64,000 nucleotides of DNA, from positions 1 through 64,000 of IMG/VR virus record IMGVR_UViG_3300025012_000028. The stretch is one strand, 5' to 3'. Source of the stretch: a virus. This document shows, in pieces, positions 24,950 to 60,819 of this stretch (its first letter is position 1; every line of letters begins with the position of its first letter). The notes beneath the pieces are model-generated. The model did not search any database, was not told where the DNA came from, and saw nothing but the letters and a program-made list of their open reading frames with translations. The translations under genes and the position numbers were made by a program.

Positions 24950-25348
24950 ATGAACAACTTCGAGATTGCTCTGAAGATGTTGCGGGAAGGTAAAGATTAT
25001 TTCGAGTGCATCGATCTTCTCACAGAAGAAGCTGCTACTGTAGCTAGGGATGGTGGATATCAATTCATGATATACCCAGAACCACTAGGCAATCCATCAT
25101 TCCATGTGCGATATAAAGATGAGTGGGAAGTGGTATTGGAAATGACATCTTTCAAAATTTTAGAAAGTAAGTTCGGACCTTACAGAAAGGGTCAAGTTTT
25201 GCCTTCAAAAATTCGAAAGAAAATATATTCGGTTTTATCTGAAAAGAATGCTGTAAACATTTTAGTGTGGCAGTATATGATACACACTTGGAATCTCAAT
25301 AATCCAAAATATCAAGTAGATATCAACACCAAATTGGTACAACCTTAA
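24950..25348 (+). CDS. Hypothetical protein, 132 aa
   Basis: Soluble alpha/beta protein, first gene after the 24881 promoter, followed 22 nt later by the von Willebrand A gene. No motif recognised. Confidence 0.65.
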   Translation: MNNFEIALKMLREGKDYFECIDLLTEEAATVARDGGYQFMIYPEPLGNPSFHVRYKDEWEVVLEMTSFKILESKFGPYRKGQVLPSKIRKKIYSVLSEKNAVNILVWQYMIHTWNLNNPKYQVDINTKLVQP

Positions 25349-57563: not shown

Positions 57564-57664
57564 TTGTTGGTTCCTCTCTTTAATGGACAAATATAACCTT
57601 CGGGTGGTTCAGTACACCATTCACATCTGATAGTTCTATCTAAGGGACAGAATTTAGTTTTCAT
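57560..57664 (-). CDS. Tiny Cys-rich protein, 34 aa
   Basis: MKTKFCPLDRTIRCEWC...ICP: four Cys, probable zinc knuckle. Overlaps both neighbours by 4 nt, showing coupling. Confidence 0.5.
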   Translation of the reverse strand: MKTKFCPLDRTIRCEWCTEPPEGYICPLKRGTNK

Positions 57665-58482
57665 GACATCTCATTATATATTCTTTTCATGTCTCCATAT
57701 CTATGTTCAAGCTTGTTTATAATCTCATCGAACATATCATCCCACTCTTCCAGAATATCCAACTTCAGTTCGGAATTCTCAATTAATTCTTCTATGGGTT
57801 CAATGATATTTATCTGGTTGAATCTGGTGAGTTTGGATTGTAATGTTGACCACGCCACAGTAAAGAAATTGTGGAAGGATTCCTTTATCATATCTTCGTG
57901 GGTATTATATGATTTTGCTACCTGAGACATTTCTTCGTCTCTCATGGAATCATATTCACCTACCTGCTTGGCGAACCTTTCACCTTTTCTTCCACCCCTA
58001 GCACGGAACGTTAAAGAACCACCGGGATCAATTCTGGTAACATTTCCTTTGTTATCTACGATAAGATTTCCTGCAAAGTCACCTGTTCCTGCCGTGTCCC
58101 AATTCGCAATGAAGATATCTACTGCGAATCCTTTCACAAAGTCTTTATAATTCGTCAACTGAGCGAAATCTACATGTGTTCCGTGGCTTTGTTGGGAAGC
58201 AAGCATGATCTGATCATCTTTTATATAAAGGTCGGCGTAAGGCACCTTTATGTTGAAATTATGATATAACTCATAAGCCAGATATTCAACGAGTATATGA
58301 AGGACGGAATCATTGTATGCATCGTAAAGATGGACAGAAGGAGTCTTGACAAAGTAAGTCGTTCCTTTCGTATCTTTATATTTCCTCACATCATGAGAAC
58401 TTCCAATGTCCTGAGTTTCAGTTGTGGACAGTTCACCTTTTTTGAAAGCCATTTCCATGAGGTAAGATTTAAAGGATTTCAT
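57661..58482 (-). CDS. HipA/PI-kinase-like protein with capsid-targeting N-terminus
   Basis: 273 aa. Residues 1-10 MKSFKSYLME fit the T4 capsid targeting sequence and end at an L-x-E protease site. The kinase-like core has TTYFVKTP (possible nucleotide-binding Lys), IFIANWDTAG, GNLIVD and RIDPGGSLTFRARG (metal-binding Asp). Such folds phosphorylate proteins or lipids. I infer packaging and injection. Start overlaps the upstream stop by 4 nt. Confidence 0.62.
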   Translation of the reverse strand: MKSFKSYLMEMAFKKGELSTTETQDIGSSHDVRKYKDTKGTTYFVKTPSVHLYDAYNDSVLHILVEYLAYELYHNFNIKVPYADLYIKDDQIMLASQQSHGTHVDFAQLTNYKDFVKGFAVDIFIANWDTAGTGDFAGNLIVDNKGNVTRIDPGGSLTFRARGGRKGERFAKQVGEYDSMRDEEMSQVAKSYNTHEDMIKESFHNFFTVAWSTLQSKLTRFNQINIIEPIEELIENSELKLDILEEWDDMFDEIINKLEHRYGDMKRIYNEMS

Positions 58483-59009
58483 AACAGTTCTACCTTGAAT
58501 TTTTCTTCTAAGAATTCAATAAAATCATCTTTGGTTGGATATTGGTCTAAATGAACACTATCAAAATATTCATTATCATAATACTCATTCAACACTTTTT
58601 CAAATATCTGTAACTGTATAACATATTTATTCAAAGGTTTAATAGGACGTTTGACCACCTCTTCTTGTTCATCATAATATGGTGTATGATTGTATGGTCG
58701 TTCGTTATTGAAAGCATCTTTGTCGTTTGCATAATAATTAAAAGGCTCAATCTTAAAATTGTGACTGAGTTTATCTCCATCAATAATAAATCTACACTCA
58801 CTTGGGATAGATTCTCTATCCCATTTATGAAAGTTTTTGTCTCTTGTAAGACTGACACCATCATAACCCATCTGTCTTAACATATTGCTGTTTGTGATTT
58901 GCACTAAACTTTCCAATGAAGTATAATGATAAAGAATTCCAACCTGTTTGGCTTCATATAGCTGTTCATCTTTAAGGATATCCTGAATGAGTTGTTCGAA
59001 TAGAGTCAT
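58479..59009 (-). CDS. ADP-ribosyltransferase-like protein with cleavable N-terminus
   Basis: 176 aa from ATG 59009 (AGGTG before it). N-terminal ~20 residues are acidic/helical and end LYEA, an (I/L)-x-E-A prohead protease site. Then LYHYTSLESL (possible catalytic His), GVSLTRDKNF and EQEEVV resemble ART folds. Substrate unknown. T4 packages the ADP-ribosyltransferase Alt in a similar way. Confidence 0.58.
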   Translation of the reverse strand: MTLFEQLIQDILKDEQLYEAKQVGILYHYTSLESLVQITNSNMLRQMGYDGVSLTRDKNFHKWDRESIPSECRFIIDGDKLSHNFKIEPFNYYANDKDAFNNERPYNHTPYYDEQEEVVKRPIKPLNKYVIQLQIFEKVLNEYYDNEYFDSVHLDQYPTKDDFIEFLEEKFKVELL

Positions 59010-59010
59010 A

Positions 59011-59424
59011 TCACCTAGTTTCCTTTCGGTTCTTCCAAAATGCTTTACCATCTTCTTCCATCCAACCATCCGTGGGTTGTGGGTTTAAACCAATTGAATC
59101 TAGAAAGTCATAAATTGCGGTAGCTACACCCTGTCTTCGAAACTTTGGTTCCACTTTAACACCCTCAACACTTCCCCAATCATAATAATCTGCATGACCA
59201 ACATACTCTTCTTCGTGGTAAGCGATCACTTCATACATTTCATTTGAACCATAAAATTCTTCAAATCTTTCTTCATCAAATTTACCTTTTCTAATAATCA
59301 ACTTTAATGGAAGACCTTTGTTGGTAATCACATTCCTTTGGAATGATCTACCGGAGTTCAAAGCTTTAATTAGTTTCCACACCTTTTCTTGGTCTTCTAT
59401 TAAAAATTTTTTAAATGAAATCAT
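59011..59424 (-). CDS. GNAT acetyltransferase with capsid-targeting N-terminus
   Basis: 137 aa. Starts MISFKKFLIE, the capsid targeting pattern ending L-x-E. The GNAT acetyl-CoA site is VKVEPKFRRQGVATAIYDFL (R-R-Q-G-V-A). Target unknown. Part of the coupled late leftward operon. Confidence 0.72.
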   Translation of the reverse strand: MISFKKFLIEDQEKVWKLIKALNSGRSFQRNVITNKGLPLKLIIRKGKFDEERFEEFYGSNEMYEVIAYHEEEYVGHADYYDWGSVEGVKVEPKFRRQGVATAIYDFLDSIGLNPQPTDGWMEEDGKAFWKNRKETR

Positions 59425-59789
59425 TTCCCATTCCTATCATAATATCTATATCCTTGAAAACCTTTCTGTGGAATTGGATTGTCTAAATGTTTCAAATCAT
59501 TCATATGAAGAATGTTACCTTTCCACACTCTTCCGGTTGTTGAACATTGTTCTTCAGAATCTCTATCTATTCGGAAGATTCTCATCGAGGATTCTATAAA
59601 ACCATTCTTCACAAAATATATTCTAGAACCAACCGAAATGTCTTTGGGTAATTTTTTCATTGTCCAGAACTGAGTTTCATTATTATCGATCATATGTTGA
59701 GTTTCTAAATCATCATTTTTATATTGAGATTTAGGAATAGTCACAACTATATCTCTTTGTTCGGTTAGGAATTGTTTGAATGAAATCAT
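59421..59789 (-). CDS. Unknown protein with capsid-targeting N-terminus
   Basis: 122 aa. Starts MISFKQFLTE, the same decapeptide pattern. The rest is beta-rich and not recognised; it includes GRVWKGNILHMND. First of the putative packaged proteins after the HNH gene, overlapping neighbours by 4 nt. Confidence 0.66.
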   Translation of the reverse strand: MISFKQFLTEQRDIVVTIPKSQYKNDDLETQHMIDNNETQFWTMKKLPKDISVGSRIYFVKNGFIESSMRIFRIDRDSEEQCSTTGRVWKGNILHMNDLKHLDNPIPQKGFQGYRYYDRNGK

Positions 59790-60714
59790 TGTTTATCCAA
59801 CTTGAGATGAGAATAAATTTTGTTGATATGAGAAAGAAAATCTTCTTGTGTAAAATCCCATTTCATCCTATTGCAATGTTGGCAACATGATACCACATAT
59901 ACCCCTTTGAAGAATCTATTCTATCTATTCCAATATTACTATCATTGCCACAATATCCGCAAGTTGAGTGTAGTAATTTATCAAAATCTTCTTTTGAAAT
60001 GGAAAAATCTAAATTCCTCTCTTTTGCTTTGGTCGAATATCTATAAAACAAATTTCCATATTTTGGTTTGTTTCTGTGGTTATAATTGAAAGGTGAACGT
60101 TGAAATTTTATTATTTTAGTAATATGATTTAATATATTATCCAAATTAAAATTCATCTTAGCTATATTGCATCTATAACAACACGAACAACAATTATCCA
60201 ACGTGTAACCAAGTTCATTATCAATTCTATCTATTCCTATAGTTTCTATATCGTTCCCACAATATGAACAGGACAAATTCCAAAAAGATTCAAACTCTAT
60301 TAAAGATAAACCAAATTCAATTTTTCTCTGAGTTGCACTGTTTTTATATTGATTATATTTGCCTTTAATTGTTTTACTATATTTTTTACTTCGTATTAAA
60401 TGTGCTTCTTTATTTTTATTGTAATCTTCTTTATCTAAATCTCTGGCTTGTTTTAAATTTTGTATTCTCCAAGTTTTCCTTTGAATACTTCTTTCTTCCG
60501 AATGATTATCTCTGTATATTTTATTTTTCTTTAATATTTCAGATTTATTTTCTTGGTAATATATTTTACATTGTTCGATCCTATTAAACGCAATATCCTC
60601 TTTATTATCTGATCGGTATTGATTAATTTTATCTTTATTTTTTCTTCTATATTCTTTATCATACTCTTTCTTTTTCTGTTTCTTTTCATCCGTTGGAAAT
60701 TTTTCTGCTGACAT
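59786..60714 (-). pseudogene. HNH homing endonuclease, frameshifted in second zinc module
   Basis: 283-codon open part (60714-59863) with a long basic N-terminus, one complete module (CSYCGNDIETIGIDRID ... CCYRCN) and the start of another (CGYCGNDSNIGIDRID). A frame change near 59885-59904 breaks the second module; its tail (VVSCCQHCNRMKWDF ... HLKLDKQ) continues in another frame to 59786 and still overlaps the next ATG. The intact first module may still be functional. Confidence 0.7.
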
Positions 60715-60811: not shown

Positions 60812-60819
60812 TATTTATA
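60812..60819 (-). promoter_or_regulatory. T4-type late promoter (leftward)
   Basis: TATAAATA on the minus strand, start of the HNH/effector operon. Confidence 0.78.

Follow-up and report, generated by a model that had tools for sequence, protein, structure and literature searches.

The closest described counterpart of the locus analysed here is the internal-protein system of phage T4, the mechanism of which is already known (PMC9026906, PMC3012670, PMC12373910). The first ten residues of T4 IPIII are enough for packaging, residues 4 and 7 being responsible for targeting and residues 8 and 10 for processing (PMC9026906). Ip1-3 of T4 are injected anti-restriction proteins (PMC12373910), and IPIII also contributes to head morphogenesis (PMC9026906). 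T4 Alt, a head-packaged ADP-ribosyltransferase (ART), has a 7-residue propeptide (PMC9026906). In the polyvalent/MuF-fused effectors of phages, ART, kinase-fold and GNAT domains are parts of one giant head-anchored protein (PMC5512222), and numerous injected proteins, some of them processed by the prohead protease, have been described for phages of the SPN3US/phiKZ type (PMC5694885).

The stretch of DNA that was analysed (the window, 64,000 nucleotides) comprises bases 1-64000 of the 214,553-base (214.5 kb) record of a T4-like phage, a large bacterial virus. A first-pass annotation, made from the sequence alone, had proposed that a late operon in this window encodes unrelated enzymes that are packaged into the head and injected. 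Three of the proteins were said to begin with MKSFKSYLME, MISFKKFLIE and MISFKQFLTE and a fourth to contain LYE|A, and searches of the full genome for the same decapeptide and for a gp21 homologue had been named as checks. It was verified that all four open reading frames and N-termini are present on the minus strand. The gene g1 (59421..59789, 122 aa) starts with the leader MISFKQFLTE|Q (residues 1-10, 59760..59789; the bar marks the predicted cut), and its weak DUF1489-like match was below the cut-off and was not used. It is followed by g2 (59011..59424, 137 aa), in which the leader MISFKKFLIE|D (residues 1-10, 59395..59424) precedes a GNAT acetyltransferase domain; both leaders were recognized by the leader profile and by the degenerate pattern described below. 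The ART-like g3 (58479..59009, 176 aa) has a longer variant of 19 residues, MTLFEQLIQDILKDEQLYE|A (58953..59009), which ends with LYE|A. In g4 (57661..58482, 273 aa) the leader MKSFKSYLME|M (residues 1-10, 58453..58482) precedes a protein-kinase-fold domain at about residues 22-270, and its P4-P1 residues YLME are identical to the predicted cut site of the major capsid protein (MCP) of the phage itself.

The coupling that had been claimed was found as 4-nt overlaps at g1/g2 and g3/g4 and a 1-nt gap at g2/g3, and the bodies of the tagged proteins were mostly without kinship in BLASTP, in agreement with their description as unrelated. As for the leftward late promoter, the T4-type late promoter motif TATAAATA is present on the minus strand at 60812..60819 and is the nearest exact copy for this cluster, but it is not located directly before g1. 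It lies about 1 kb upstream of the cluster, 105 nt ahead of an open reading frame for an HNH endonuclease-like protein (59863..60714, minus strand; PHROG 3118, E=9e-17), which stands between the motif and g1. This frame has an apparent frameshift near 59890, close to its 3′ end, and the other frame reaches the start of g1 with an ATGA overlap.

The leader is not confined to the window. The consensus MISFKxFLxE opens 19 open reading frames of the record, all on the minus strand. The observation is real and more extensive than first noted. Of these frames three lie in the window, and the other 16 are found elsewhere in the genome, at 82935, 83858, 86165, 138168, 139217, 140284, 140489, 141415, 141690, 143578, 145649, 146233, 164893, 166630, 167125 and 198126. 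Further candidates are g3 with its longer leader and the divergent 145059 (MISYKTIFE|D). A leader profile matched at 19 of 5,038 possible start codons, while only two of 87,452 non-start positions scored above 12. Because this profile was trained on its own members, the untrained degenerate pattern MxxFKx[FY][LIMF]xE was applied as well. It had 14 matches in this genome, each at a gene start and all on one strand, compared with none in the same genome when it was read backwards, and one match in 30 random viral contigs. Positions 1, 4, 5, 7, 8 and 10 of the leader are conserved, while 6 and 9 are free. Phe4, Phe/Tyr7 and Leu/Ile8 were present in 19/19 leaders and Glu10 in 17/19; the two exceptions regain L-x-E two to five residues further on (MISFKSYILLVE|S with LVE|S and MISFKTFLHAPLLLE|A with LLE|A). 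The likeness to the T4 leader that had been inferred was thereby borne out, as the conserved aromatic residues 4 and 7, Leu/Ile8 and Glu10 are the positions of the T4 IPIII mutagenesis.

A second class of leaders (MNNFxKTLxLLxE, MNIFDSILKE, MSILxxILxE) was observed on other, mostly small proteins at genome positions 104326, 107680, 110832-112171, 194427, 194697 and 199519 (minus strand) and at 24950 of the window (plus strand). Several of these genes are directly behind TATAAATA. The proteins are possibly prohead core proteins or additional cargo.

The domain assignments of the first-pass annotation fared differently. The GNAT domain of g2 scored above the Pfam cut-offs (PF13673, 25.8 bits with a cut-off of 23.6; PF00583, 25.3 bits with a cut-off of 20.7), and the kinase-like fold of g4 was supported by a confident model. 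In contrast, no ART profile scored above the cut-off for g3, the result for Tox-ART-HYD1 being E=0.022 and 15.8 bits versus a cut-off of 25. The ART motifs sought were YH.T, the (S/T)-x-T region and a Glu before the last core strand; Y27-H28-x-T30 and E116 were invariant, albeit in three paralogues only. It is plausible that g3 is ART-like; two paralogues share its motifs. In BLASTP, g3 was 44% identical over 82 columns (E=5e-16) to a tagged protein of 801 aa (genome 86165-88570). The aligned region opens with the predicted P1 glutamates, Glu19 in g3 and Glu10 in the larger protein, i.e., at the predicted cut, and the preceding leaders differ. ART families were also found among the tagged genes outside the window: 138168 encodes a fusion of ART-PolyVal and GNAT domains (E=3e-19 and 3e-7), and 141690 a further ART-PolyVal domain (E=1e-7). 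At genome 142505-144090 (minus strand) the tagged 143578 and the overlapping frame 142505 resemble a single ART-like gene split by a frameshift. Weak Pfam matches below the cut-off were left unused (ING for g4, NDK for 83858 as well as that of g1).

Folding of g4 from the single sequence gave a pLDDT of 34 and was discarded. An AF2 model with 49 relatives from viral contigs had a pLDDT of 87.6 and a pTM of 0.89, with low confidence for residues 1-20, the leader. A Foldseek search with this model retrieved RIOK2 (E=4e-5), CtkA (TM 0.47), PI3KC3 and aminoglycoside and macrolide kinases. K46, E66, N127, D129, N139 and D152 were invariant in the 50 sequences of the family, and the protein fits a protein-kinase-like fold with the catalytic Lys/Glu/Asp/Asn/Asp set (K46, E66, D129, N139, D152). 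According to the confident model g4 has a protein-kinase-like fold; phosphotransfer activity and substrate have not been shown. With g3 or g4 as the only query, no close relatives were obtained from IMG/VR. A five-sequence profile search yielded 293 relatives of g4, and most of those sampled are embedded in proteins of about 500 to more than 2,000 residues. Two carry the g4-type domain together with Phage_Mu_F and two with minor capsid protein 2 and a C-terminal ART, one protein has the name HK97 portal, and in Gordonia phage Phendrix a g4-type gene directly follows the portal gene. The fusion of the g4 domain to minor capsid protein and ART elsewhere is a counterpart of the adjacent tagged g4 and ART-like g3 of this phage. 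Stand-alone relatives of g4 (L318-L324) begin with another kind of leader (LKSLILEVLSEE, ALRQLIREVLLSE), which may be the packaging tag of another lineage.

A gp21 homologue was also found. The prohead protease gene is located at 67720-68406 (PF03420, E=2e-17, 60.2 bits with a cut-off of 27) and adjoins a scaffold-like gene (66960-67643). Together with the genes for the gp23 major capsid protein (65285-66895, E=3e-91) and the gp20 portal (70478-72124, E=1e-106) they are 5-14 kb from the cluster in the window. A gp24-like capsid gene (genome 84769-86124; Gp23 family, E=1.5e-40) is flanked by tagged genes. The MCP contains NYLME|DGSTS just ahead of its conserved body, at the position of the T4 gp23 cut, and the scaffold protein contains VLTE|D; both cuts are predictions made by eye. 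The gp21 protease family was matched once more, weakly, at genome 203418-203684 (minus strand), with a score of 22.8 bits, below the cut-off. The motif TATAAATA lies 33-49 nt upstream of the MCP, scaffold, protease, portal and gp24-like genes and of the tagged genes 86165, 143578 and 146233, while it was within 70 nt of 0/40 genes of the 116-138 kb block. No exact late promoter was found before the 167556 cluster, and the motif was weak or absent at other tag clusters.

The distribution in other viruses was analysed with a back-translated leader pattern, which matched at least 120 stretches in IMG/VR, compared with eight for a codon-shuffled pattern; a second shuffled pattern had no matches. 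Among the matches listed (120 loci) there were 172 tagged open reading frames of at least 50 residues, which formed 59 BLAST clusters. These clusters were not joined by BLASTP past residue 12, and remote homology would reduce their number. Their representatives included Acb1 (E=3e-36), SAM lyase, ADPrib_exo_Tox, zeta toxin (a zeta-like kinase), RNA ligase, amidoligase and GNAT. Among the matches listed, up to 12-15 tagged genes were present per contig (G004, G001), and the gp21 family was encoded in 12/12 tagged contigs larger than 120 kb, as was gp23. The gp21 figure is only descriptive, because it lacks a length-matched baseline, the random 14-mer contig sample being too short.

Three loci may be mentioned individually. 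On the 40 kb contig G001 (L012) 15 tagged genes are arrayed on one strand, and several are close paralogues with HEAT repeats. At L037:6884-7330 the leader MISFKQFLHE is immediately ahead of the domain of an Acb1 (anti-CBASS) homologue, a sequence arrangement that suggests an injected anti-CBASS enzyme. UvsW.1 of T4 and RB49-like phages (PDB 2jpn; L084:3755-3988) opens with a leader motif of the MxFKxFLxEA type, and its structure has been solved as a folded domain. Therefore, the motif need not always signify packaging; either UvsW.1 is a head protein that has gone unrecognised, or it is a counterexample in which the motif is insufficient.

Virion data are not available for the present phage. 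For the cyanophage S-CREM2 a virion proteome, determined by mass spectrometry, has been published (PMC10665884; genome OR473000). A scan of its gene starts for M..[FY]..[FY][LIMF].E retrieved exactly four genes, i.e., gp6 (SAM hydrolase, MKDFDSFLEE), gp14 (APH-like kinase, MKRFDAFLTE, GTG start), gp136 (MQTFSMFFSE) and gp154 (cytidylyltransferase, MKNFSSFLTE). All four had been detected in virions (PMC10665884), compared with 52/219 open reading frames overall (p=0.003), and the enrichment was also found within the non-structural frames (p=0.0004). The near-matches gp13 (MKDLHSFLTE) and gp12 (LRFASFMAE|A, preceded by a longer start) had been detected as well. The authors of the proteome noted that contamination of the virions by abundant proteins is possible (PMC10665884). 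Of the two leader genes of S-SCSM1, that for NMNAT (MKSFLQFLKE) carries a virion-protein annotation, while the one encoding a 106-aa protein does not. As gp12 of S-CREM2 is a Cas9-like nuclease that is present in virions and has LRFASFMAE|A near its annotated start, a CRISPR nuclease may share the packaging tag.

Explanations other than packaging have to be weighed. Every copy of the leader is at a start codon and many of the genes are coupled by ATGA overlaps, as would be expected if the shared N-terminus were a translation or expression signal (a 5′ mRNA element) or the relic of a recent duplication. However, the amino acids are kept while the codons vary, Phe4 being encoded by TTT and TTC at a ratio of 9:10 and Leu8 by all six Leu codons. 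The pairwise DNA identity was 68% in the leader but only 31% in the 30 bases before it and 28% in the 30 bases after it. Degenerate codons together with unrelated flanking DNA indicate selection on the peptide, and the difference between leader and flanks excludes a recent DNA duplication, so that an mRNA signal or a recent gene duplication as source was ruled out by the codon and flank analysis. In addition, the conserved positions are those of the T4 signal, L-x-E is kept in the spacing-shifted leaders, and the leader proteins of S-CREM2 are virion-associated; this explanation retains virtually no weight. It is very unlikely that the leader is an N-terminal helix for targeting to the membrane or to tail and baseplate, although it is a short amphipathic helix and some tagged genes are near tail genes, the 164893-167556 cluster adjoining a large fibre-like gene. 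The leader fits the cleavage logic of gp21 and the MCP cut site, it co-occurs with gp21 and gp23, and the gp24-like capsid gene is between tagged genes.

A different possibility accepts targeting to the prohead core and removal of the leader, but gives the cargo a role mainly in the producing cell or as filler of the head core, injection being incidental. The present data contain no evidence of injection, and the morphogenetic role of T4 IPIII (PMC9026906) would be in line with such a function. Nevertheless, this was regarded as unlikely in view of the diversity of enzymatic cargo, with ART, kinase fold and GNAT in this phage and Acb1, SAM lyase and RNA ligase on further tagged contigs, the injection of the anti-restriction proteins Ip1-3 (PMC12373910), and the occurrence of the g4 domain in head-protein fusions of other phages, a layout ascribed to injected effectors (PMC5512222).

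The preferred reading is that the leader is a capsid-targeting sequence (CTS) and that the tagged enzymes are packaged, cleaved and injected. It is regarded as very probable, with packaging in this phage, cleavage, injection and substrates all being inferred. The tagged proteins would be made late in infection, together with the head genes, and their aromatic residues 4 and 7 would dock them onto the prohead scaffold core. During head maturation the gp21-type protease would cut the leader off after (L/I)-x-E, and the freed enzymes (ARTs, GNATs, the kinase-fold protein and more, in all at least 19 per genome besides g3) would remain in the head with the DNA. They would enter the next host with it, and their most likely role there is to alter host proteins or weaken defences ahead of phage gene expression. 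The enzyme battery in the head that the first-pass annotation had proposed is supported by the 19 leaders, the fit to the T4 positions, the gp21 and head gene context and the virion detection in S-CREM2; packaging itself is strongly supported, albeit by inference. That the enzymes act at once after injection and modify the host remains an inference. The annotation had understated the case.

The locus shares with T4 IPI/IPII/IPIII an N-terminal leader of about ten residues on otherwise unrelated proteins, a gp21 protease in the genome and, before part of the tagged genes, late promoter motifs; in the leaders of both, positions 4 and 7 are aromatic, position 8 is I/L and position 10 is E. In contrast, there are at least 19 carriers instead of three, the consensus MISFKxFLxE differs from the T4 form, and the cargo has catalytic-looking domains (ART, kinase fold, GNAT), while the T4 proteins are small basic inhibitors. 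With Alt it shares ART-type enzymes with predicted gp21 processing and injection; unlike Alt, the ARTs are several per genome, share the leader and match ART-PolyVal or no family. The domain set is that of the polyvalent/MuF effectors, distributed over separate genes, each with a cleavable-looking tag. Numerous injected proteins, some of them processed by a prohead protease, would be a feature in common with SPN3US/phiKZ, which belong to a separate giant-phage lineage. An earlier report of the leader outside T-even phages was not found in the open-access literature; most subscription papers were outside this scope. Taken together, the mechanism inferred is that of the T4 internal proteins, in a variant that has many more cargoes, enzymes among them, and is widely distributed; no earlier description of this variant was found in that literature.

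In every test available the leader behaves like the capsid-loading tag of T4, so that the head of this virus probably carries many enzymes, which would be injected together with the DNA. What is known of the T4 leader comes mainly from three small restriction inhibitors and their T-even relatives. It seems likely, with less assurance than for this phage, that the decapeptide is a zip code of a general, portable T4-like cargo system. It would have been attached to enzymes of dozens of unrelated families, with 12-19 cargoes in some phages, and would deliver pre-made enzymes for counter-defence and host reprogramming (ARTs, kinases, Acb1, SAM lyase, RNA repair, NAD metabolism). The leader offers one account of the cyanophage virion enzymes (cytidylyltransferase/NMNAT, kinase, SAM hydrolase), which could not be separated from contamination by their authors. 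If it tags diverse enzymes in T4-like phages, the set of injected effectors would be predictable by sequence, and the injected proteome of an uncultured phage would be legible from N-termini alone. The pool of unannotated phage genes would then become a ranked source of early-acting counter-defence candidates.
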